From Frigoribacterium endophyticum (lineage in GTDB: Bacteria; Actinomycetota; Actinomycetes; Actinomycetales; Microbacteriaceae): DNA of 64,000 nucleotides. Of this stretch, positions 25,383-37,107 are shown piece by piece. Each line of letters opens with the position of its first letter. The stretch's first letter is position 1. A model generated the notes under the pieces. The model worked only from the letters and a program-made list of their open reading frames with translations, was not told where the DNA came from and searched no databases. The DNA lies in contig NZ_JAAOYV010000001.1 of assembly GCF_011759585.1 (NCBI RefSeq), positions 496,001 through 560,000 of the forward strand. The letters run 5' to 3'. The position numbers and the translations under genes are program-made.

Positions 25383-25388
25383 TCTCGA

Positions 25389-25476
25389 GGCTCCCCACGT
25401 GGCGTCATCCAGGCCAACTCCCCCAGGGCGGAAACGCAGCAAGGGCAACCTGGCTCTGGCGGGTGCGTGGGGAGTC
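25389..25476 (+). ncRNA. ffs: Signal recognition particle RNA (4.5S type)
   Basis: This is a single long hairpin with terminal arms GGCTCCCCACG and CGTGGGGAGTC. The apical domain holds the conserved Ffh-binding core GGGCGGAAACGCAGCAAGG with its GGAA-type tetraloop and asymmetric loop. The size and core match the small bacterial SRP RNA of actinobacteria. TTTTTTT at 25481-25487 follows the closing stem and should terminate it. The ends are accurate to a few bases. Confidence 0.92.
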
Positions 25477-25490
25477 TTCCTTTTTTTCTC

Positions 25491-25601
25491 GCGCCGCCGC
25501 CCCTGCGGCGCGACGGGGCGCGGTGCCGGGGCACGACGGGATCGGCGGGTCGCCATCCCGTGGGGGGCGCCGCCGCCCCTGCGGCGCGACGGGCGCGGTG
25601 C
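25491..25601. repeat. Direct repeat pair of about 35 bases
   Basis: Copies lie at 25491-25526 and 25567-25601 and differ by a single base in a G run. Each contains the inverted arms CGCCGC and GCGGCG. No gene is seen between 25477 and 26076. Confidence 0.75.
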
Positions 25602-25727
25602 GGGGGACATCGTCGGGCCCGGAGCGAAGGGGACGGCCGACGAGCGCAGGGCAGACCGCTCGGTCGGGGGACACCTGGCCCCCGGGATGGGGGCAACGGA
25701 GGGATGTTCAGCTTCGCGCCCTCTGCA

Positions 25728-25733
25728 TAGGAT
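25728..25733 (+). promoter_or_regulatory. Candidate -10 for the giant surface protein gene
   Basis: TAGGAT here is the most convincing -10 in the 600-base gap. If used, it gives a leader of about 335 bases before ATG 26077. No clear -35 is visible. Confidence 0.4.
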
Positions 25734-25761
25734 GACGTCACGACGAGACCCACCACCTCGT

Positions 25762-26060
25762 CGGCACGGCTCACCACCGTGCCGGTCCGCCCCTCACCAG
25801 GGCGGTCCGCCGACCGTGCGGCACCGCAGCCGCCCGACCGTCAGGATCAGGACGATGAGCCCCTCACCACGGCACGTCAGCACCACCCGCAGGCGAACGA
25901 CCCCGCGCACCCCGCGCTAGGCCGCTCGCCTCTTCGTCGTGCCCGCAGGGGCTCATCGGCGACGGCCCGGACACCCGAACACCCGAACCACAACTGAACA
26001 CACGCACCCCTCCCGTCTCACCAGCGGGGGGTCCGGATCAGGCGGCGGGTCAGTCCCGCC
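25762..26060 (+). promoter_or_regulatory. Structured leader with four CTCACCA motifs
   Basis: Two consecutive perfect hairpins (8 bp at 25762-25784 and 6 bp at 25787-25805) each display the identical 7-base loop CTCACCA. A third element spans 25853-25958. It has outer arms CGATGAGCCCCT / AGGGGCTCATCG, then GGCACG / CGTGCC (25871-25876 and 25938-25943), AGGCGA / TCGCCT (25891-25896 and 25926-25931), and an apical GCGC / GCGC hairpin, all nested in order. CTCACCA recurs at 25863-25869 and 26017-26023. A last hairpin, GGCGGG / CCCGCC (26044-26060), abuts the ribosome-binding site. No known riboswitch class was recognised. Confidence 0.5.
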
Positions 26061-26076
26061 AGGAAGAGGCACGCAC

Positions 26077-29000
26077 ATGCGACGTCATGTGGCGGAGCGC
26101 AGCACCCGCGAGCGCACCCTCAGCAAGGCCCTCGGGCTCAGGATCGCGGCGACCGCGGCCATCGCGGCCGTCGTCGGCGCCCTCGCGGTCGTCCCGGCGC
26201 AGGCCGCCACGACCGACGTCAGCGAGGCCGAGGCCTCGCTGCTGAGCGGCTCGGGCATCGTCGGCCTCGACAGCATCGTGCAGCTCCAGGGCGCCTACTC
26301 CGCCACCGGTGCGGCCGGCTCCGGCGGGGTGGTGAACAGGGGCCTGTCGGTCGAGGCGCTGAACGCCCTCCAGGTGGGCCTCGGCCCCGTCGACCTCCTC
26401 GGGACGAACGGCATCCTCAAGCTCGGCGTCGCCGGTCAGTACGCGAGCACGACGCCGACCGGCGCGTACGCGAGCGCCGGCGCCGTCGGCGCGAACGGGG
26501 CCATCGCCGTCGGCAGCGGCGCTCCCGGCACCGGGGCGACCCTGAACCTGACGCCCCTGCTCGGTCGCGTGCCGGCCGCGAGCGGCGTCGTCAGCGACGT
26601 CACCCTCGGCCTCGGCGCGCTCTCGTCGTCGATCACCGAGACGCGCACCGCCGCCGGCTCCGACGTCAGCACCGCCTACCAGGTCGCGGGCGCCCGCTAC
26701 ACGATGACGAGCCCCGCGGTCTCCGCGCTCACCGGGCAGCTGCAGGCCAGCCTCCGCGGCGTCAGCACGGGCATCAGCGGAGCCACGAGCGGCACCGGGC
26801 TGGCCGGTGCGACCACCGGGGTGGTCGCCCCGTTGACCTCGGCCCTCAGCACCCTCGGGCTCGGGGGCGTCGTCAGCCTCGACGGCACGGCCGTGACCGC
26901 CACCGCCACCGTCGACCTCGACTCCACCGTCGCCGCCGAGCTCGCGAAGCCGCTCACCTCCGGCCCCGTGACGATCACCCCGAGCACCGGCCAGGTCGTC
27001 ATCGACGTGGGTGCGCTCAACAACCTCGGCCCGAACAGCGAGCTGTTGACGACCCAGCGGGTCACGGCCATCACGAACGGCATCGCCGACATCCTGGACG
27101 TCCAGCTGCCGACGAACTTGACGGCTGCCGTCGACCGGGCCGTCAAGGCCACCGCCGTCCGCGTCGGCCTGACCACCGACGTCCTGCTCAAGACCGGGAT
27201 CCTGCCCCCCGTGCGCGTCGCGGGCCTGACCGCGACCGTCGACACGACCATCGGCCAGCTCCTGGCCGGCACGACCCCCGCCTCCGCGGTCTCGGTCACG
27301 GGCACCGGCGCCCTCGACACCGTCCTCGTCCGGCCCCTGCTCCGCGGAGTGGTCGTGCCCGTCGTGACCGGCACGCTGCTGCCCGCCGTCGGCGCGGTCT
27401 ACTCGCCCCTCGTCACCGGCGCCGGCCTCACGGCCACGACCACGGCGATCACCACGGTGACCAGCGCGACGCTGCTCACCCTGTCGCCCCTCACGGCCGT
27501 GCTCGGCCAGCTCGCCGGCGTCACGATCAACGCGCAGGACGCCCCCGGCTTCCGCGACCCCCGCGGCACCGACGCCGGCTCGCGCAGCGTCCACGCCGTC
27601 CGCCTCACCGTCCTGCCCGCGCTCGCGGGCGGGCTCCGCGTCGACCTGGCGACGTCGACGGCCCGTGCCGCCGCGTTCGTCGGCCTCACCGTGCAGACCC
27701 CCGCCCCCGGCCAGCAGTTCGTCGTCGCCGCGACGCCCGGGGCCACCCGCACGGTGACGCTCACCGGCACCGGCGAGCCCGGCGCGACCGTGCGGGTCAG
27801 CGTGCCCGCCTCCGCGGCGGGCGCCTCGGCCCTCACCGGCACCGCGACCGTGGCGGGCGACGGCACCTGGAGCGTGCCCGTCGCCGCCGTGCCCGCCGGC
27901 CAGTACCAGGCGACCGTGACCCAGACCGTCGGCGGCACCGTGACCGGCACGCAGACGCGCGCCTTCGTGGTCGTCGCGCAGCAACCCCTCGTCGTCACCA
28001 GCCCGACGGCGGGCCGTGTCTACACGGTGCTCGACGGCGCGTCGACGACCCCCGTCGTCGTGGCGGGCACCGGCACCCCCGGCGCCGCGGTCGCGATCGA
28101 CCTCGGCGGCGGGCGCACCGCGACCGCCACCGTCGGCCCCGACGGCAGCTGGACGACCACGGTCGACGGCGTCCCCGTCGGCTCGTACACCGCCTCCGTC
28201 ACGCAGTCGCTCGGCGGCGACACCTCCGCCGTCGTCACGCGGGCCTTCAGCGTGCAGGCGGGCACCGCGCTCGCCCTGACCGCCCCGACGCCCGGCAGCG
28301 TCCTGCGGGTGCCCGGTGCCGACTCCACCCGTGACGTCACGGTGAGCGGCACCGGCCAGCCCGGCGCGACCGTCACGGTCGCCCTGCCCGGCGACCGCAC
28401 GCAGACCGCGACCGTCGCGGCCGGCGGCACCTGGTCGACGGTCTTCACCGCCCTGCCGGTCGGCCAGTACCCGGTCTCCGCCACGCAGACGGTGGGAGGC
28501 GCCACCAGCGCCCCGCTGACCACGGACGTCACGATCGAGGCCGCGGAGGGCGTCGCGATCACCTCGCCCGACGACGGCGCCGTGATCACCCTCGCCGACG
28601 CCGGCTCCGTCACCCCGGTGACCGTGACCGGCACCGCCGAGCCCGGCGCCCCCGTCCGCGTCGACCTCGGCGACGGACACCTCGCGACCACGACGGCGGA
28701 CGCCGACGGCGACTGGACCGTGACGATCCAGAGCGTGCCCGTCGGGCCGCAGCGCACCGTCAGCGTGACGCAGACCGTCGCGGGCGTCGTCTCGAGCCCC
28801 GTCACCCGGGCGCTCACCGTCACGGCGGGCGCGCCCCTCGTGGTCGACGCCCCCACGCCCGGCCAGGCGTACCGGGTGCCCGCCGCGGGCTCGGTCACCA
28901 CCGTGCCCGTCTCCGGCACCGCCGCGGTCGGCGCCACGGTCTCGCTGTCGCTCGGCACCGGACTGCCGACGCAGACCGTCGTCGCCGTCGACGGCAGCTG

Positions 29001-32000
29001 GGCGACCACCTTCGAGGACGTCCCCGTCGGCGGCCGCACCCTGACGGCGACCCAGTCGATCGGCGGCACGACGTCGCCGGCGCAGACGCGGCCGATCTCC
29101 GTGGTCGCGGGCGCCCCGCTCCTGATCGACTCGCCGACCCCCGGCACGGTCGTCGCCGTGGCCGAGGCGGGCGACGTCGCGGACGTCGTCGTCACCGGCC
29201 GCGCCGACCCCGGCGCCGCGGTGCAGGTCGGCCTGGGCGCCCTCCTCGCCTCGACCGTCGCCGACCCGACGACGGGCGCGTGGACGGCGACGATCACCGG
29301 CGTGCCGGAGGGCACGTACACGCTCGGCGCGACGCAGGTCGTGGGCGGCGTGACGTCGCCCCGCGTGACCCAGCCGCTCACCGTCGAGGTCGGCGAGCCG
29401 ATCGAGATCACCGGCCCCGCCGACCAGACCGTCTACTACGTGCCGGGCGCCACCGGCACGGCGACCGTCCCGGTCACCGGCACGGCCGAGCCCGGGGCCG
29501 CCGTGCTCGTCGACCTCGGCGGCGGACGCACCGCGCAGGTCACCGCCACCGCGGTCGGCACCTGGAGCGTCGACGTGGCCGGCGTGCCGATCGGCAGCTA
29601 CGAGGTCGCGGCCACGCAGACGGTGAACGGCAGCACGTCGTCGGCGACGACGCGAGTGATCGTCGTGGAGCAGGGCGGCTTCGTCGTCATCACCGCCCCC
29701 GCGACCGGCAGCCGCCTCACCGTGGCCGACGCGGCCGGCCGCACCTCGGTCGTCGCTCGCGGCACCGGCGTCGCCGGGGTGCCCGTCACCGTCACGGTGT
29801 CGGGCGGGGTCGTCGGGCCCGTCACCCGGGACGGCGCGCTGTGGGAGGCGACCGTCACGGGCCTGGCCGTCGGCACGCACACGGTCGAGGCCCGGCAGGT
29901 GCAGGGCGGACAGACGCTCTCGGCGGCCCCCACCACGTTCCAGGTGGTCGCGGCGGAGCCCCTCGTCGTCGTCTCGCCCGCCGACGGGGACGACCCCGTG
30001 CGGATCGTCGGCCCGGGCACCGCGTCGGTGCCCGTCACGGGCACGGCGGCGCCCGGCGCCGTCGTCGCCCTCACCGTCACCGACGCCGACGGCGACCCCG
30101 TCGGCGACGCCCCCGCCCCGGTCACCGCCGACGGCGCCGGCGCCTGGAGCGCCGTGCTCACCGGGCTGCCCGTCGGGTCGGTCACCGTGCGCGCCACCCA
30201 GACCGTCGGCGGATCGACGTCCACCACCCCGGAGACCGTCGTCGTGCGGATCGAGCGCGCGGGCGACCTCGTGATCGACACGCCCCTCGGCGACCCCGAC
30301 TACGTCGTGCTCGACGCCGCGGGGGTGTCCGACGTCCTCGTGCAGGGCCGCGCCGCCGCCGGGGCGACGGTCGAGGTCAGCCTCGACGGCGCCCTCGTGG
30401 GTCGGACCGTCGCGGACGGCGCCGGCGCGTGGAGCCAGCTCATGCAGGCCGTGCCGGTCGGCGACCACGAGGTCACCGCCACCCAGCTGCTCGGCGGCAC
30501 GAGCCAGGGCGCCGGCCCGGCGACCTTCTCGGTCGTCGCGTCGCCCCTCGCCGTGACGACGCCCGACGTCGTGACCCTGGCCGACGAGCTCGCCACGACC
30601 GACGTCACCGTCCGCGGCACCGCCGCCCCCGGGGCGTCGGTGGCGGTCAGCCTCGACGGCGTCACCGTGACGGTGACCGCCACCGGGGGAGCGTGGTCGG
30701 CCGACTTCGACGACGTGCCCGTGGGCACGCACCAGATCTCGGCCGTCCAGTCCCTCGGCGGCCGCACTTCCCTGCCCCAGACGGCGCAGCTGACCGTGCA
30801 GGCCGGCGCGCCCGTCACCGTCGACGCGCCCGTCGCCGGCACCGTGGTCGAGGCGTTCGGCTCGCAGCTGCCGACGACCGTCACGGTCACCGGCCGGGCC
30901 GAGCCCGGCGCGATGGTCGACGTCGCCCTCGGCGGCGTCGTCCGCCAGGTGGTCGCCGACGGCGGCACCTGGTCGACGACCTTCCCCGTCGGGGCGGGCA
31001 GCGCCACGGTCACCGCCGTGCAGACGGTCGGCGGCACCACCTCCGCCGTCCCCGCGACGACGACGTTCCAGGTCGTGGCCCTGCCCGACCTCGACGTCGT
31101 CGAGCCCGGCGGCGACCCGATCGTGGTCGTCGACGACGACGCGACGGCGAGCGTGCCCGTCTCGGGCACCGCGGCGCCCGGCGCGACGGTCACCGTCGTG
31201 CTCGACGAGACGGTCACCGCGACCGTCCAGGCCGACCCCGAGTCCGGCGACTGGTCGACGGTGCTCGAGGGCGTCCGCACCGGAGTCCACGAGGTCGTCG
31301 TGACCCAGTCCCTCCGCGACCTGGTCTCGGCCCCCGAGACCGTCGCGTTCACCGTCGAGGCGGGAGCTCCGCTCGTCGTCGTCGACCCGCAGCGCGACGC
31401 GACGGTCACCGTCCCCGACGCCGCCGCCCGCGCGACCGTCACCGTGACCGGCACCGCCCAGCCCGGAGCCCGCGTCCGGGTCGACCTCGGCGACGACCGC
31501 GTCGTCTCGACCGACGCCGACGACGCGACCGGCGCCTGGTCGGTCGACGTGGCCGGCGTCCCGGTCGGGGTGCACGTGGTCAGCGTCACCCAGACGGTCG
31601 GCGGCACGACCTCCGCCGCCGACGAGCGCACCCTCACGGTCGCGGCCGCCCCGCCCGTCACCATCGCCACCCCGCAGGCCGGCGTCCCCGTCGTCCTGGC
31701 CGAGGCCGGCTCGGTGACCGACGTCACCCTCAGCGGCACCTCGGCGCCGGGCGTCGACGTGGTCGTGCAGCTGGGCGACCTGCCCGCCCGCACGGTGACC
31801 GCGACCGGCACCCCGGGCGGCCCCGGCACCGGCACCTGGACGCTCCTCGTCGAGGACGTCACCGTGGGCGACCGCGAGATCAGCGTCGTCCAGGTCGTCG
31901 GCGGAGCCACGTCGACCCCGGTCACGCAGCTGCTGCAGATCGTGGCCGGGGCCCCCGTCGTCGTCGCCGAGCCCACGGGCGCGGACGACGTCGTCGTGAT

Positions 32001-35000
32001 CGACGCCGACGCCACCGCCTCGGTGGTCGTCTCGGGCACGGCCCAGCCGCAGGCCGTGGTCACGGTGACCCTGGCCGGCACCACGGTGCCGACCCGGGCC
32101 GACGGCGAGGGCCGCTGGTCGGTCACCGTGCCGGGCGTGCCCGTCGGCGACCAGGTCGTCAGCGTCGTCCAGACGGTCGGCGGCACGACCTCGACGCCCG
32201 TGACCGTCGACCTCACCGTCCGCGCCGCGGGCGACCTGGTCGTCCAGCGGCCGGCCGGCGAGCTCGTCGCCACCCTCGTCGACCCCGCCGGCGTCGTCGA
32301 CGTGCCCGTCTCGGGCACGGCCGAGCGCCTCGCCACGGTGCGGGTCAGCCTCGGCGGCGACCGCGTCGTCGAGGTGCAGGCCGACGACCAGGGCGCGTGG
32401 AGCACGGTCGTGCCCGGCGTCCCCGCCGGCCGCTACGAGCTCGTCGTCACGCAGACGGTGGGAGGCGCGACCTCGGCCCCCGAGACCCGCCCCGTCCTCG
32501 TCGCGGTCGCCGACGCCCTCGTCCTCGACGAGCCGGTCGACGGCACGGTCGTGCCGCTGATCGCGGCCGGCGACACCACCGACGTCACCGTCTCTGGCTC
32601 CGCGGACCCGGGGGCGACGGTCACCGTCGACCTCGGCACGGCGGGCACCCGGACGGTCGTCGCCGACGACGTCGACGGCTCCTGGACGACGACGTTCCCG
32701 GGCGTCGGCGTCGGCGAGTACGCCGCCACCGTCACCCAGACGGTCGACGGCCGCGTCTCCGCCGCCCTCACCGCCGACGTCTCCGTCGTCGTGGCCGCCC
32801 CCGTGGTGGTCACGGTGCCCGACGTCGACGCCTCGTACACCGTCCCGACGGCCGGCGGCACCGCCGACGTCGTCGTGGTCGGCACCGCCCAGCCCGGCGC
32901 CTCGGTCGAGGTCGTCGTGGTCGACGACGACGGCACGAGCCACACCGGCACCGGCACGGTCGGCGTCGACGGCGGCTTCACCGTCACCGTCCCCGGGGTC
33001 CCCGTCGGGGAGCACACCGCGAGCGTCGTCCAGACGGTGCCCGCGGGCAGCTCCGACCCCGCGACCCGCGACTTCTCCGTCGTCGTCGCCGACGGCGTCG
33101 TCCTGACCGCGCCCGAGGCCGGCACGCCGTTCGTCGTCATCGACGCCGCGGCCACGACCGACGTCGTCGTCACCGGCACCGCCGAGGGCGACGCCGAGGT
33201 CACGGTGACCGTCGGCGGCCTCCCGCCGGTCGTCGTCACCGCCGACGCCGAGGGGGCGTGGACGGCCACCGTGCCCGACGTGCCCGTCGGCACGACCACC
33301 ATCTCGGTCGTGCAGCGGTTCGGCGGGGTCGTCACGACGCCCGTCACCCAGCCGCTCGTCGTCGCCGCGGCCGCCCCGGTCGTCGTGGCCGCGCCGGCCC
33401 CCGCCGAGCAGGTGGCGGTCCTGACCGCCGCCGACCTGGCCGACGTGACGGTGAGCGGCACCGCTCAGCCGGGCACCGTCGTCCGGGTCGACCTCGGGGA
33501 CGGCCGCGTGCTGACCGCCGACCTCGGCCAGTCGACCACGTGGTCGGTCCGCTTCGCCGACCTCCGGGTGGGGGCCTACCGGGCCTCGGTCACGCAGTCG
33601 CTCGACGGCGCCGTCTCGGCGCCCGTCACCCGCGACTTCTCCGTGGTGCCCGCCGCGGCCCTCCTCGTCGAGTCGCCGGCCGACGGAGAGGTCGTCACCG
33701 TGCCCACGGCCGACGGCACCGCCGACGTGACCGTCTCGGGCCGTGCGCAGGCCGGCGCGACCGTCCGCGTCGACCTCGGCGACGGGCTCGTCCGCACCGT
33801 GCGGGCGTCCGGCGACGGCACCTGGTCGGCCGTCATCGCCGGCGTCCCCGCCGGGGACCGCACCGTCTCGGTGACCCAGACGGTCGGCGACCGGACCTCG
33901 GCGCCCGACCGGCGACTCCTCAGGGTCGTCGCCCTCGCCCCGGTCGTGGTCTCGGCCCCGGCCGCCGGCGCGGTGGTCACCACCGCCGACCCGTCGGGCA
34001 CCGCCGACGTCGTCGTGAGCGGGACGGCGGCGCCCGGCGCGACCGTCACCGTCGACCTCGGCGACGGCCTGGTCGAGGTCGTCACCGCCGACCCGACGAC
34101 GGGCGCCTGGATCGTCACCGTCGCCGACGTCCCGGTCGGCGACCGCACCGTGACCGTGAGCCAGGTCCGTGACGGGGTCACCAACGCCCCCGTCGCGCAG
34201 CCCCTCACGGTCGCGCTCGCCGCGCCCGTCTCGGTCGACCAGCCCGCCGACGGCGACACCGTCGTCGTGCTCGCCCCCGGCGACAGCGCACCCGTGACGG
34301 TCCGCGGCGAGGCCCAGCCCGGGGCGACGGTCACCGTCGACCTCGGGGACGGCCGGGCCGTCGTCCTCCCGGTCGGCGCCGACGGCAGCTGGACCACCGG
34401 GCCCGTCGACCTCCCCGTCGGCGGCACGACGGTCACGGTCACGCAGACGATCGACGGCTCGACCTCCGCTCCCGTGGTCGTCGACCTGACGGTCGCCGTC
34501 GCGGCCCCGGTCGTCATCACGACGCCGCCCGCGGGCACGGTCGTGACGGTGCCCACGGCGGGCGCGACGACCACGGTCGTCGTCGCCGGCTCCGCCCAGC
34601 CGAGCGCGTCGGTCACGGTCGACCTCGGCGACGGCCTCGTCGGCACGGGGACGGTCGGCGTCGACGGCTCGTTCTCGGTGCCCGTGGCCGGCGTGCCCGT
34701 CGGCGACCGCGTGGTCAGCGTCACGCAGACCGTGCCGGCCGGCACGACGCCGCCCGTCGAGCAGCCGCTCACGGTCGTCGTCGCCGCCGCCGTCGTGGTC
34801 GAGACGCCGCGGGCCGACCGGCCCGTCGTGGTCGTCGACGACGCCGCGACCACCGACGTGCTGGTCTCCGGCACCGCCGAGCCGGGCGCGAGCGTCGTGG
34901 TCGGTCTCGACGGCGACCGGAGCCAGACGGTCTCGGCCGACTCGACGACCGGTCGGTGGGCGACCACCTTCCTCGCGGTCGGCGTCGGCACGCACGTCTT

Positions 35001-37107
35001 CTCGGTCTCCGAGCGGCTCGACGGCGTGCTCACTGCACCCGTGACCCGCACGCTGGTCGTGCAGGCCGCGACGCCCGTGACGGTGACGGCCCCCCTCGAC
35101 GGCAGCAGCACGACCGTCGCGACGGCCGACTCCACCGCCGACCTGACCGCCGGAGGCGCGGCGCAGCCGGGTGCACCGGTGCGCGTCTCGCTCGACGGCG
35201 GCGACCCCGTCACCGTGACGACCGGGGCGGACGGCCGGTGGGCCCTCGCGCTCCCGGGACTCGCGGTCGGGCCCCACGAGCTGTCGGTCGTCCAGACCGT
35301 CGGCGGGGTCGACTCGCAGCCGGTGACCTCGCAGTTCGAGGTCGTGGTCGCGGCGGCCGTGGTCATCACGTCGCCGACCACCGACGAGCGCTTCGTCGTC
35401 GACGGGGCCGGCACGGCCGCGGTGGTCGTGCGCGGCCAGGCCGAGCCGGGCGCGCCCGTGTCGGTCTCGCTCGACGGCGACGACCCGGTGACGGTCACCG
35501 CCGACGCCCGCGGCGCGTGGCAGGTGAGCGTCGAGGTCCGCCCCGGCGTGCACCTCGCCTCGGCCAGCCAGGTCGTCGCGGGCGGGGCCACGGCCCCGGT
35601 CGAGGTCCGGTTCGTGGTCGACCCGGCGCCGACCGTGCCGGTCGCGCCCCTGGTCGTCACCTCGCCGGCCGCCGGCCAGCTCGTGGTCGACGCCGACGGC
35701 GACGGCACCGTCGACCTCACGGTCACGGGCACCGGCCAGCCGGGCGCGGTCGTGACCGTCGACCTCGGCGCCGGCGTCGGGGCGACCGGCCAGGTGGGGC
35801 CGGAGGGCGACTTCACCGTCGTCGTCCCGGGCGTCCCGGTCGGGTCGCAGGTGGTCACGGTCGAGCAGTCCGAGGGCGGCGTCGTCGTCGGCAGCGTCAC
35901 CGTGCCCGTCACGGTGGCGCCCGCCGCCACGGTCGCGCCGCTCCGGATCGTCTCGCCCGCCCAGGGCGACGTCGTGCCGGGAGGCACCGACGGCGTCGCG
36001 GACGTGCTCGTCCGGGGCACCGGGCAGCCCGGCGCGGCCCTCTCGCTGGTGCTCGACGGCGGCGACCCCGTCGCCCTCGAGGTCACGGCGGGCGGCACGT
36101 GGGAGCTGCCCCTCGCCGGGCTGGCCTCCGGCCAGCACGCCGTCGCGGTGACCCAGACCGTGGGAGGCGCGACCTCCGCCCCCGAGACCGTCTCGTTCTC
36201 GGTGGCCCCGGCCGCCGCGGTCGGCACCCTGACCATCACGGCCCCGGCCCCCGACGAGCTGATCCGCGACGCGGACGGCGACGGGCTCGAGGACGTCGTG
36301 GTCTCGGGCACGGGCCAGCCGGGCGCCGTGGTCGTCGTGGAGGTCGCCGGCCGCGACCAGAGCGTCGTGGTCGACGAGGCCGGTCGGTGGACGCTGCCCT
36401 TCCGGGCGGTGCCCGTCGGGGCGACCCGGGTGATCGCCACCCAGGTGGTCGACGGGGCGACGAGCGTCGTCTCGCAGGGCCTCGTCATCGCGGCGGTCGC
36501 GCCGGTCGTCATCGACGACCCGGCGGCGGGGGCGCAGCTCCCGGCCGGCGCCGCGGGCACCGCCCCGGTGACGGTGTCGGGCTCGGCCGAGCCGGGCGCG
36601 CTCGTCACGGTCGTCCTCGACGACGACCGGACGGCGACCGTGACGGCCGACCCGGCCACCGGAGCCTGGACCGTCGCGTTCGCGGACGTGCCGGTCGGCG
36701 ACCACGTGGTCGCGGCGGCGCAGACCGTCGACGGCGCCACGGGCGACCCCGTGACGACCGGCTTCAGCGTCGTCGCGGCGGACGAGCCGGCACAGCCGGG
36801 CACGCCGGGCACGCCGGGCCAGCCCGGTCAGCCCGGCACGCCGGGTCAGCCCGGGTTCCCGGGCCTGCCCGGGCAGCCGGGCACGCCGGGCACGCCGGGT
36901 CAGCCCGGCGCCCCGGGGCAGCCGGGCACGCCCGGCCAGCCCGGCGGCGCCTCGCCCGCGCCGACCGTGGCGGGGTCGTCCGGCCTCGCCTTCACCGGAC
37001 AGGACGCCCTCGGGTGGGCGTCCGCGGGTGCCGGCCTCCTCCTGCTCGGCCTGGGGCTGCTCACCGCAGCCCGGGTGCGCCGGGCCGTCCGGTCGAGGAG
37101 GGCGTAG
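26077..37107 (+). CDS. Giant cell-wall-anchored Ig-repeat surface protein (choice-of-anchor G type)
   Basis: The protein has 3,676 residues. ATG 26077 follows AGGAAGAGG and opens a signal peptide ending VPAQA (cleavage about residue 44). Residues about 45-535 form a Gly/Ala/Ser/Thr-rich domain like the N-terminus of choice-of-anchor G proteins. About 32 Ig-like repeats of roughly 95 residues follow (539-3568), each running from a short S/P-x-x-G start through GTAxPGAxVxVxLG and WSxxxxxVPVG to VTQTVGGxTSxP. Next come a collagen-like run of P-G-x triplets, the sorting motif LAFTG (3637-3641), a membrane span and an Arg-rich tail. LAxTG motifs are used by class E sortases. It is probably a fibrous adhesin or surface-layer filament. 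No sortase gene is in the window. Confidence 0.88.
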   Translation: MRRHVAERSTRERTLSKALGLRIAATAAIAAVVGALAVVPAQAATTDVSEAEASLLSGSGIVGLDSIVQLQGAYSATGAAGSGGVVNRGLSVEALNALQVGLGPVDLLGTNGILKLGVAGQYASTTPTGAYASAGAVGANGAIAVGSGAPGTGATLNLTPLLGRVPAASGVVSDVTLGLGALSSSITETRTAAGSDVSTAYQVAGARYTMTSPAVSALTGQLQASLRGVSTGISGATSGTGLAGATTGVVAPLTSALSTLGLGGVVSLDGTAVTATATVDLDSTVAAELAKPLTSGPVTITPSTGQVVIDVGALNNLGPNSELLTTQRVTAITNGIADILDVQLPTNLTAAVDRAVKATAVRVGLTTDVLLKTGILPPVRVAGLTATVDTTIGQLLAGTTPASAVSVTGTGALDTVLVRPLLRGVVVPVVTGTLLPAVGAVYSPLVTGAGLTATTTAITTVTSATLLTLSPLTAVLGQLAGVTINAQDAPGFRDPRGTDAGSRSVHAVRLTVLPALAGGLRVDLATSTARAAAFVGLTVQTPAPGQQFVVAATPGATRTVTLTGTGEPGATVRVSVPASAAGASALTGTATVAGDGTWSVPVAAVPAGQYQATVTQTVGGTVTGTQTRAFVVVAQQPLVVTSPTAGRVYTVLDGASTTPVVVAGTGTPGAAVAIDLGGGRTATATVGPDGSWTTTVDGVPVGSYTASVTQSLGGDTSAVVTRAFSVQAGTALALTAPTPGSVLRVPGADSTRDVTVSGTGQPGATVTVALPGDRTQTATVAAGGTWSTVFTALPVGQYPVSATQTVGGATSAPLTTDVTIEAAEGVAITSPDDGAVITLADAGSVTPVTVTGTAEPGAPVRVDLGDGHLATTTADADGDWTVTIQSVPVGPQRTVSVTQTVAGVVSSPVTRALTVTAGAPLVVDAPTPGQAYRVPAAGSVTTVPVSGTAAVGATVSLSLGTGLPTQTVVAVDGSWATTFEDVPVGGRTLTATQSIGGTTSPAQTRPISVVAGAPLLIDSPTPGTVVAVAEAGDVADVVVTGRADPGAAVQVGLGALLASTVADPTTGAWTATITGVPEGTYTLGATQVVGGVTSPRVTQPLTVEVGEPIEITGPADQTVYYVPGATGTATVPVTGTAEPGAAVLVDLGGGRTAQVTATAVGTWSVDVAGVPIGSYEVAATQTVNGSTSSATTRVIVVEQGGFVVITAPATGSRLTVADAAGRTSVVARGTGVAGVPVTVTVSGGVVGPVTRDGALWEATVTGLAVGTHTVEARQVQGGQTLSAAPTTFQVVAAEPLVVVSPADGDDPVRIVGPGTASVPVTGTAAPGAVVALTVTDADGDPVGDAPAPVTADGAGAWSAVLTGLPVGSVTVRATQTVGGSTSTTPETVVVRIERAGDLVIDTPLGDPDYVVLDAAGVSDVLVQGRAAAGATVEVSLDGALVGRTVADGAGAWSQLMQAVPVGDHEVTATQLLGGTSQGAGPATFSVVASPLAVTTPDVVTLADELATTDVTVRGTAAPGASVAVSLDGVTVTVTATGGAWSADFDDVPVGTHQISAVQSLGGRTSLPQTAQLTVQAGAPVTVDAPVAGTVVEAFGSQLPTTVTVTGRAEPGAMVDVALGGVVRQVVADGGTWSTTFPVGAGSATVTAVQTVGGTTSAVPATTTFQVVALPDLDVVEPGGDPIVVVDDDATASVPVSGTAAPGATVTVVLDETVTATVQADPESGDWSTVLEGVRTGVHEVVVTQSLRDLVSAPETVAFTVEAGAPLVVVDPQRDATVTVPDAAARATVTVTGTAQPGARVRVDLGDDRVVSTDADDATGAWSVDVAGVPVGVHVVSVTQTVGGTTSAADERTLTVAAAPPVTIATPQAGVPVVLAEAGSVTDVTLSGTSAPGVDVVVQLGDLPARTVTATGTPGGPGTGTWTLLVEDVTVGDREISVVQVVGGATSTPVTQLLQIVAGAPVVVAEPTGADDVVVIDADATASVVVSGTAQPQAVVTVTLAGTTVPTRADGEGRWSVTVPGVPVGDQVVSVVQTVGGTTSTPVTVDLTVRAAGDLVVQRPAGELVATLVDPAGVVDVPVSGTAERLATVRVSLGGDRVVEVQADDQGAWSTVVPGVPAGRYELVVTQTVGGATSAPETRPVLVAVADALVLDEPVDGTVVPLIAAGDTTDVTVSGSADPGATVTVDLGTAGTRTVVADDVDGSWTTTFPGVGVGEYAATVTQTVDGRVSAALTADVSVVVAAPVVVTVPDVDASYTVPTAGGTADVVVVGTAQPGASVEVVVVDDDGTSHTGTGTVGVDGGFTVTVPGVPVGEHTASVVQTVPAGSSDPATRDFSVVVADGVVLTAPEAGTPFVVIDAAATTDVVVTGTAEGDAEVTVTVGGLPPVVVTADAEGAWTATVPDVPVGTTTISVVQRFGGVVTTPVTQPLVVAAAAPVVVAAPAPAEQVAVLTAADLADVTVSGTAQPGTVVRVDLGDGRVLTADLGQSTTWSVRFADLRVGAYRASVTQSLDGAVSAPVTRDFSVVPAAALLVESPADGEVVTVPTADGTADVTVSGRAQAGATVRVDLGDGLVRTVRASGDGTWSAVIAGVPAGDRTVSVTQTVGDRTSAPDRRLLRVVALAPVVVSAPAAGAVVTTADPSGTADVVVSGTAAPGATVTVDLGDGLVEVVTADPTTGAWIVTVADVPVGDRTVTVSQVRDGVTNAPVAQPLTVALAAPVSVDQPADGDTVVVLAPGDSAPVTVRGEAQPGATVTVDLGDGRAVVLPVGADGSWTTGPVDLPVGGTTVTVTQTIDGSTSAPVVVDLTVAVAAPVVITTPPAGTVVTVPTAGATTTVVVAGSAQPSASVTVDLGDGLVGTGTVGVDGSFSVPVAGVPVGDRVVSVTQTVPAGTTPPVEQPLTVVVAAAVVVETPRADRPVVVVDDAATTDVLVSGTAEPGASVVVGLDGDRSQTVSADSTTGRWATTFLAVGVGTHVFSVSERLDGVLTAPVTRTLVVQAATPVTVTAPLDGSSTTVATADSTADLTAGGAAQPGAPVRVSLDGGDPVTVTTGADGRWALALPGLAVGPHELSVVQTVGGVDSQPVTSQFEVVVAAAVVITSPTTDERFVVDGAGTAAVVVRGQAEPGAPVSVSLDGDDPVTVTADARGAWQVSVEVRPGVHLASASQVVAGGATAPVEVRFVVDPAPTVPVAPLVVTSPAAGQLVVDADGDGTVDLTVTGTGQPGAVVTVDLGAGVGATGQVGPEGDFTVVVPGVPVGSQVVTVEQSEGGVVVGSVTVPVTVAPAATVAPLRIVSPAQGDVVPGGTDGVADVLVRGTGQPGAALSLVLDGGDPVALEVTAGGTWELPLAGLASGQHAVAVTQTVGGATSAPETVSFSVAPAAAVGTLTITAPAPDELIRDADGDGLEDVVVSGTGQPGAVVVVEVAGRDQSVVVDEAGRWTLPFRAVPVGATRVIATQVVDGATSVVSQGLVIAAVAPVVIDDPAAGAQLPAGAAGTAPVTVSGSAEPGALVTVVLDDDRTATVTADPATGAWTVAFADVPVGDHVVAAAQTVDGATGDPVTTGFSVVAADEPAQPGTPGTPGQPGQPGTPGQPGFPGLPGQPGTPGTPGQPGAPGQPGTPGQPGGASPAPTVAGSSGLAFTGQDALGWASAGAGLLLLGLGLLTAARVRRAVRSRRA
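27691..36780 (+). repeat. Array of about 32 Ig-like coding repeats (period about 285 bases)
   Basis: The repeat starts were counted by eye from the recurring opening motif (for example VTSPTAGRVY, LTAPTPGSVL, ITSPDDGAVI, and lastly IDDPAAGAQL). At DNA level blocks such as CAGACGGTCGGCGGCACG recur almost unchanged. Repeats diverge more in their central strands. Such an array is prone to unequal recombination and misassembly, so the copy number should be treated as provisional. Confidence 0.8.

Follow-up and report, generated by a model that had tools for sequence, protein, structure and literature searches.

The gene for a giant choice-of-anchor G adhesin in Frigoribacterium endophyticum (Microbacteriaceae) stands behind a long leader in which the seven-base sequence CTCACCA recurs, and the locus raises the question of what such a leader does and what might read it. 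We analysed the window (the whole stretch of 64,000 nucleotides that contains the locus) together with leaders from related genomes.

The adhesin gene and its candidate promoter

The adhesin gene begins with an ATG at 26077. It is flanked by an SRP RNA gene and a dnaX-type gene, and the aspartate kinase and semialdehyde dehydrogenase (asd) gene families lie downstream of it in the window.

25386..25482, + strand: small SRP RNA gene, upstream of and separate from the leader element (RF00169, 62.7 bits)
25728..25733, + strand: -10-like box TAGGAT, read by eye
26061..26069, + strand: Shine-Dalgarno sequence AGGAAGAGG of the adhesin gene
26077..37107, + strand: choice-of-anchor G adhesin with tandem Ca_tandemer repeats, 3676 aa (NF033766, E 8e-48; NF033510, 18 stretches)

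Boxes like TATGCT, TAGGAT, TAAGAT and TATCTT, again read by eye, precede the first hairpin in most related leaders, at distances that range from a few nt up to about 30. Judging from these -10-like boxes, transcription would start near 25740. A GC-rich hairpin (GCCGCCGCCCCTGCGGCGC) occurs as two close repeats at 25498-25592, in the interval from the SRP RNA gene to the promoter, and similar copies were seen upstream in loci L012 and L013.

A hairpin array in the leader of the window

CTCACCA occurs on the + strand at 25770, 25793, 25863 and 26017, all in the adhesin leader, and six further copies are scattered over the 64 kb on both strands. Ten copies per window is not rare (5.9 expected; 10 reached in 7/100 shuffles); what is unusual about CTCACCA is its clustering and its position in loops, not its window-wide number. 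Counting hairpins with a 7-nt loop and a stem of 6 or more bp, G-U pairs included, we found three in the leader (25701-26080), all three with a CTCACCA loop, and 695 in the rest of the window on both strands, none with a loop of the class CNMACCA. The strand from 25728 to 26090 folded at -166.2 kcal/mol, compared with -144.3 ± 5.6 kcal/mol for its shuffles (z -3.9; 0/100 as low). The 5' part of the array is as follows.

25741..25763, + strand: hairpin 1, CGACGAG/CTCGTCG, loop A-CCCACCA-C (closing-pair probability 0.95)
25763..25783, + strand: hairpin 2, 7-bp core stem, loop CTCACCA at 25770-25776 (closing-pair probability 0.98)
25787..25805, + strand: hairpin 3, CCGCCC/GGGCGG, loop CTCACCA at 25793-25799 (closing-pair probability 0.94)

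The preliminary description had reported four CTCACCA copies in the leader, two adjacent hairpins with this identical loop, and a fourth copy with a hairpin near the ribosome-binding site. All were found where it had placed them, the two adjacent hairpins exact in the sequence, and the fourth copy proved to be itself the loop of an 8-bp hairpin (hairpin A, below). Hairpin 1, the 5'-most of the array, was absent from its list. That description recognised no riboswitch class, and no Rfam family reached the curated threshold in the leader: in the whole window this search returned only the SRP RNA and two tRNAs, and at nine related loci only the SRP RNA. At the relaxed threshold the leader gave two sub-threshold matches, the best with 21.3 bits against a cut-off of 41.2.

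The same sites were followed in A3, an alignment of 8 Frigoribacterium leaders. The site of hairpin 1 reads CGAACCA in six relatives, with a closing-pair probability of 0.36-0.39 in the three computed, and AGCACCA, a departure from the loop class, in G009. Hairpin 2 has another stem in relatives (GGAGCG/CGCTCC), and its loop is CCAACCA in G003 and G007 and TCAACCA in G005, G008, G010 and G013; the latter form, in 4/8 relatives, falls outside the CNMACCA class. The stems of hairpin 3 in relatives are GCACC/GGTGC and CGACG/CGTCG.

Conservation and covariation next to the ribosome-binding site

Next to the start codon the leader contains a compact element of two hairpins joined by a GGATCAG motif.

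26009..26031, + strand: hairpin A, 8 bp including 2 G-U, loop CTCACCA at 26017-26023 (closing-pair probability 0.93)
26035..26041, + strand: GGATCAG copy 2, linking hairpins A and B
26044..26060, + strand: hairpin B, GGCGGG/CCCGCC, abutting the Shine-Dalgarno sequence (paired cells 98.9% in alignment A2, 100% in alignment A4)

The adhesin is present in 12/16 genomes of the genus, and the orthologs in all 12 showed one order: a hairpin with a CTCACCA or CCAACCA loop, GGATCAG, a second hairpin, and AGGAAGAGG or AGAAAGAGG. In 480-620 nt of sequence upstream of Frondihabitans (g5) orthologs, the recognised hairpins number four to six and the CNMACCA copies 5-12, and the short leader of L079 has one hairpin and two CNMACCA copies. 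Leaders are also short in genus g32, where each of three genomes has two element-bearing genes. Among 26 loci whose upstream sequence was examined, the element by the ribosome-binding site (RBS) was found in 6, with parts only in L052 and L055. Hairpin A of L040, one of the six, carries the variant loop CCACCCA.

Comparing orthologous leaders was the check that the preliminary description had proposed, and it showed covariation in hairpins A and B and a CTCACCA loop that persists across orthologs on many unrelated stems. In A2 (16 aligned RBS elements, one hairpin choice per gene), 92.8% of the cells of hairpins A and B were paired, against 44-58% in slid controls, and 21 cells were doubly changed, against 8.7 in shuffles. 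A4 consists of nine loci outside model building and one weak tenth row (a second match in L088); it was fitted to the model and hence leans towards it, and gave 92.7% paired cells against 41-57% in slid controls, with 15 doubly changed cells against 5.2.

Two further observations concern the sequence upstream of adhesin genes. L018 (G001) has, on the reverse strand and some 160-113 nt ahead of the matched protein start, six tandem GCACCACG-type units, an array of unpaired copies of the loop core before an adhesin. In L031, L032, L040, L076, L077 and L081, reading by eye showed a short ORF start MTSxxRIR (GTG/ATG-ACGTCG...AGGATCAGG), which resembles VTSHRIR, the first codons of the DUF5819 gene of G001, G006 and G014. 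This short ORF in Frondihabitans-type leaders may be left over from a gene that was lost.

Other genes behind the same leader

The hairpin leader also stands before genes of the SipW type (camelysin/TasA-related) and before a DUF5819 gene. These other targets were found with a tandem CTCACCA pattern, which gave 39 matches against 15 for its backward control; 30 were read, of which 17 rows (15 distinct places, the window's included) were hairpin leaders and 13 were coding or unclear. The genes at L122 and L211 matched the SipW-dependent signal peptide model TIGR04088 above cut-off, and those at L122 and L115 matched camelysin (PF12389) above cut-off. L186, at C2:1074062 in the window's own genome, and L114, L120 and L140, which by eye are its likely homologs, matched PF12389 below cut-off or not at all, so the designation 'TasA-like' is tentative for this group. 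L116 gave no family match.

G001, G006 and G014 each have a gene about 2 kb upstream of the adhesin, and it was DUF5819 in 3/3. In G002, G011, G012 and G015, where no adhesin was detected, the leader stands before a gene starting MSAATASSRAHRL, and the weak RBS-model matches in G002 and G012 coincide with leaders of such genes. Close to the leader gene of G011 are genes for aspartate kinase and semialdehyde dehydrogenase, the families found downstream of the window's adhesin. A signal peptidase I gene follows the SipW-type gene in G011 (L233) and G163 (L211/L237); it matched TIGR02228 just above cut-off and the SipW model well below that model's own cut-off.

Taxonomic range

Among 398 genomes of the family, the RBS model matched strongly in 19, which belong to 3 genera, with 2 weak matches besides that were rejected (L084 and L085, below). 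The pattern CTCACCA..CTCACCA..GATCAGG occurred in 17/398 family genomes from 7 genera, and its backward control in 0/398. Beyond g1 and g5, a clear case is genus g82 (G209), where GAGTAG-CTCACCA-CTACTC stands ahead of a choice-of-anchor G gene (NF033766, E 1e-44). The case of g48 is weaker, with one 4-bp hairpin in G131 and none recognised in G185, and the gene behind the leader there probably encodes a secreted protein. Genera g57, g18 and g9 gave single pattern matches.

Weak matches of model R1 at L084 and L085 (g17 and g12; E 3e-4 and 8e-4) were taken as chance; GGATCA was found on neither strand at the match, and the 570 nt read there showed no CNMACCA hairpin. At the level of the order (396 genomes, 34 of them Microbacteriaceae), the search returned G000, which is the window's genome, and, in other families, single matches at L223 and L224, likewise taken as chance. 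The leader element may be an invention of the Microbacteriaceae, with the proviso that the exact search string misses other loop variants.

Loops persist while stems drift

We assembled 36 leaders (8885 bases), chosen by hand: 10 by protein homology, 9 by model R1 and 17 by CTCACCA patterns, with upstream lengths set by us and not taken from known transcript ends. They contain 139 CNMACCA sites, of which 86 have flanks that pair over 4 bp or more when one closing mismatch is tolerated, and 53 lie outside any recognised hairpin; with exchanged flanks, only 1147/19182 combinations paired (6.0%). On stems of at least 5 bp, counted as distinct flank pairs, CTCACCA occurred 44 times, CCCACCA 7, CCAACCA 6 and every other loop at most 3 times. 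The model behind 9 of the leaders contains the hairpin-A loop and 17 others came from CTCACCA patterns, and because this choice is biased the 10 homology-only leaders were counted separately. They gave CTCACCA 16, CCCACCA 5 and the next loop 3, or 13, 4 and 3 when the window was left out.

In whole-leader folds, which covered the 30/36 leaders short enough for them, the closing pair had a probability above 0.5 in 49/90 sites and the loop centre was mostly unpaired. As expected, hairpin counts are nearly strand-symmetric, with mirror loops on the reverse strand (reverse TGGTGAG 13, CTCACCA 16 in the 10 leaders), and the strand was therefore assigned from the promoter, the start codon and the gene. 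An origin as mobile DNA repeats (REP or MITE-like) was rejected, since the stems differ while the loops persist.

The preliminary description had suggested selection on the loop sequence, through contact with a protein or a small RNA. With CTCACCA on 44 distinct stems, the first part stands. Concerning the contact, the nature of the partner can be narrowed. One or more small RNAs with UGGU-type loops might kiss the CUCACCA loops and so control translation or decay; seven bases is the size of a kissing loop, and a partner that pairs with the loop would be in keeping with its recurrence on different stems. However, the variants CTCACCA, CCCACCA, CCAACCA and CGAACCA differ at positions 2 and 3, often within one leader, which leaves 4-5 pairs to any one sRNA, and the core is enriched outside loops as well. 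When the hairpins were masked in nine leaders of two genera, CACCA occurred 46 times unpaired, against 0-14 for its permutations except the overlapping ACCAC (33), and the commonest 6-mers were GCACCA, CACCAC and GATCAG. Unpaired AACCA was weakly enriched (8 against at most 5). We regard control by small RNAs as unlikely, and because a single leader can have different bases at loop positions 2 and 3, we favour a protein as the reader of the core.

The GGATCAG motif and CsrA

GGATCAG occurred 52 times in the 36 leaders, against a mean of 0.95 and a largest count of 4 in 200 shuffles. It lies 39-42 nt before the start codon in 19/19 adhesin leaders and 14-24 nt before it in 14/17 non-adhesin leaders, and in three DUF5819 genes it follows directly after the GTG start. 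In adhesins hairpin B separates GGATCA from AGGA, and in most non-adhesin genes the two are joined directly (GGATCAGGA or GATCAGG). In the window's genome, GGATCAGG before RTG gave 52 rows, against 3 for the backward control. The 52 rows represent 47 distinct sites, of which 45 were read (two on contig C4 were left out), and CNMACCA hairpins were found upstream of 2 of these 45, namely in the adhesin leader and before the gene at C2:1074062. Since GGATCAGG before RTG is common without hairpins, the motif alone is not specific, and it is the combination that is telling.

A GGA beside the start codon is also what CsrA would bind, and the element might be explained as CsrA control through the GGA in GGAUCAGGA, with the hairpins merely shaping the leader. 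A single-copy csrA is present in 16/16 Frigoribacterium genomes (in the window's genome at G000:C2:935138-935293), and GGATCAGGA contains two GGA. CsrA was found in 115/398 family genomes overall, and in 19/19 genomes with a strong RBS element against 96/379 others, an association that rests on 3 genera (3/3 against 31/82, p 0.06). However, the CNMACCA loops contain no GGA, and CsrA was not detected in G209 (g82), which has a clear CTCACCA hairpin leader, nor in G131, G185 (both g48) or G096, whose leaders are weaker or partial. CsrA control of the leader as a whole appears quite improbable to us, and CsrA as the general reader of the loops is unlikely, mainly because of G209. CsrA may act on the GGA of GGATCAGGA. 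Were CsrA control real, matrix production would be tied to the flagellar state.

Nested helices and a putative upstream ORF

Between the 5' hairpins and the RBS-proximal element lies a region that combines long helices with a short reading frame.

25844..25850, + strand: GGATCAG copy 1, followed by GA, an SD-like stretch of the upstream ORF (invariant in 8/8 A3 leaders)
25853..25958, + strand: three nested helices, outer arm 12 bp, visible in the sequence and also predicted by folding
25855..25920, + strand: putative upstream ORF, 21 codons and stop, MSPSPRHVSTTRRRTTPRTPR* (MSPSPRHVS...), absent from the preliminary description
25863..25869, + strand: third CTCACCA, inside the upstream ORF (closing-pair probability 0.0)

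The outer arm pairs 25853-25864 with 25947-25958, and the inner helices pair 25871-25876 with 25938-25943 and 25891-25896 with 25926-25931. The preliminary description had presented these as three nested helices with a 12-bp outer arm; all three are present, but the partner strand of the 12-bp arm occurs in only 2/8 sequences of A3, G000 (12 pairs) and G009 (10). The remaining six lack the outer arm at that place, three of them with a 6-bp remnant further on (by eye), and the arm was rejected as a conserved core. In the two inner helices, all eight sequences retain 5-6 of the 6 pairs. They are nearly invariant, with one doubly changed cell and a covariation score reached by 59/500 shuffles, so covariation neither supports nor refutes them. 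The third CTCACCA forms no 7-nt loop in the predicted fold, its first two bases belong to the 12-bp outer arm, and its site reads CTCACCC in G009 and TTCACCA in G008.

These features could form a leader-peptide attenuator, in which ribosomes translating the upstream ORF would open or close the nested helices, with the adhesin controlled as a result. The putative ORF has 20-22 codons and ends in TAG in 9/9 Frigoribacterium leaders of this type (two of the nine are identical). The SD-like AGGATCAGGA, start, stop and frame are kept in all nine with indels of 3 and 6 nt only, both changes within its first 28 nt in A3 are synonymous, and its 3' part lies within the inner helices, the ones kept in 8/8. 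Against this, later substitutions in the ORF are mixed and show no third-position bias (by eye), its frame is open far upstream in the window, the outer helix is kept in only two of the eight leaders, and the ORF is absent from the short g32 leaders and from the leaders of SipW-type genes. Nor can an attenuator account for the loops, and we give it only a slight chance of being the working principle of the leader.

Proposed mode of action

An intrinsic-terminator attenuator has a terminator hairpin and a U-run before the gene. No U-run was seen by eye after any leader hairpin in the window or in A3, and together with a site that adjoins the Shine-Dalgarno sequence this favours an effect on translation initiation over intrinsic termination. 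Stems that drift under an accessible, constant loop, unpaired copies of the core, arrays of variable length and a common class of targets would all fit an array bound by a factor in trans. On these comparisons, the leader probably presents an array of binding sites to a trans-acting RNA-binding factor, itself most probably a protein, that acts on translation initiation. The core CACCA/AACCA would be displayed in 7-nt loops of the form C-N-(A/C)-A-C-C-A, with further copies left unpaired (GCACCAC) between the hairpins, at the 5' end of mRNAs for a small set of secreted or surface proteins. Stems that merely display a loop can drift freely. Near the start codon the array would be coupled to a second fixed element, GGAUCAG, and its occupancy, that of the last site above all, would most likely set the ease with which ribosomes start. 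Repression by covering the Shine-Dalgarno sequence seems likelier than activation. The conserved loops, covarying stems, position and common target class are supported by sequence, and we infer the existence and nature of a reader, the translational level, the sign, the signal and the transcript itself.

The loops might instead act within the RNA or with the ribosome only, by a tertiary contact, as a standby site or in 5' stabilisation. The array begins near the inferred 5' end, and linkers as rich in CA and poor in G as these would suit a standby site, but no loop-complementary partner was seen by eye in the leader, and standby or stabilisation would not require one loop to be kept on 44 stems. 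We consider such an internal role very improbable.

The proposed array partly resembles known loop-read RNAs. In CsrA/RsmA target leaders and CsrB/RsmZ-type arrays, one loop core with GGA likewise recurs on small hairpins, both in leaders where sites overlap the Shine-Dalgarno sequence and in multi-site arrays, and biofilm genes are among the targets. Binding of GGA motifs represses translation there (PMC4894983). Here the core is MACCA, the array (1 to 6 recognised hairpins per leader) stands in cis before its target, and a clear case comes from a genome in which no CsrA was detected. ANTAR-target RNAs, which are common in actinobacteria, are short 5'-UTR stem-loops read through conserved loop bases, but they consist of two hairpins with hexaloops that have A at position 1 and G at position 4 (PMC8164766). 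The loops described here have 7 nt with C1, A4, C5, C6 and A7, on a variable number of hairpins, and the NmPAL aptamer loop AGCAGC (PMC10966536) differs as well. ANTAR proteins (PF03861) are present in 16/16 Frigoribacterium genomes, which does not discriminate, and they were rejected as loop readers because the published target loops differ. The Corynebacterium ilvB-II motif is another conserved RNA region with a small ORF in an actinobacterial leader (PMC10272879); it belongs to different genes, and several leaders studied here have the loop array but no upstream ORF.

No paper on the element was among those listed in literature searches, although an earlier description may exist. We regard it as a conserved candidate cis-regulatory RNA element with covariation support, which would work in a known manner (a regulator that reads loops on mRNA leaders) but takes an unusual array form, and which marks a coherent set of surface and matrix-type genes in actinobacteria of leaves and soil. 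A bolder reading, to which we give somewhat less than even odds, is that Microbacteriaceae have a hitherto undescribed post-transcriptional regulon for matrix genes. A new RNA-binding protein would read the CACCA/AACCA core on drifting 5'-UTR hairpins of adhesin and SipW-type (TasA-related) fibre genes, together with GGAUCAG at the start codon. Biofilm control of the Csr type would then have a counterpart independent of CsrA, whose array is part of the target mRNA and could also titrate the protein.

In a search for a regulator gene beside the adhesin and beside four other loci, which used rough gene calls judged mostly by eye, no RNA-binding gene was recognised; the crude GC-by-position gene finder performed poorly at L236 (g82), and four upstream ORFs that were tried, perhaps in wrong frames, had no match.
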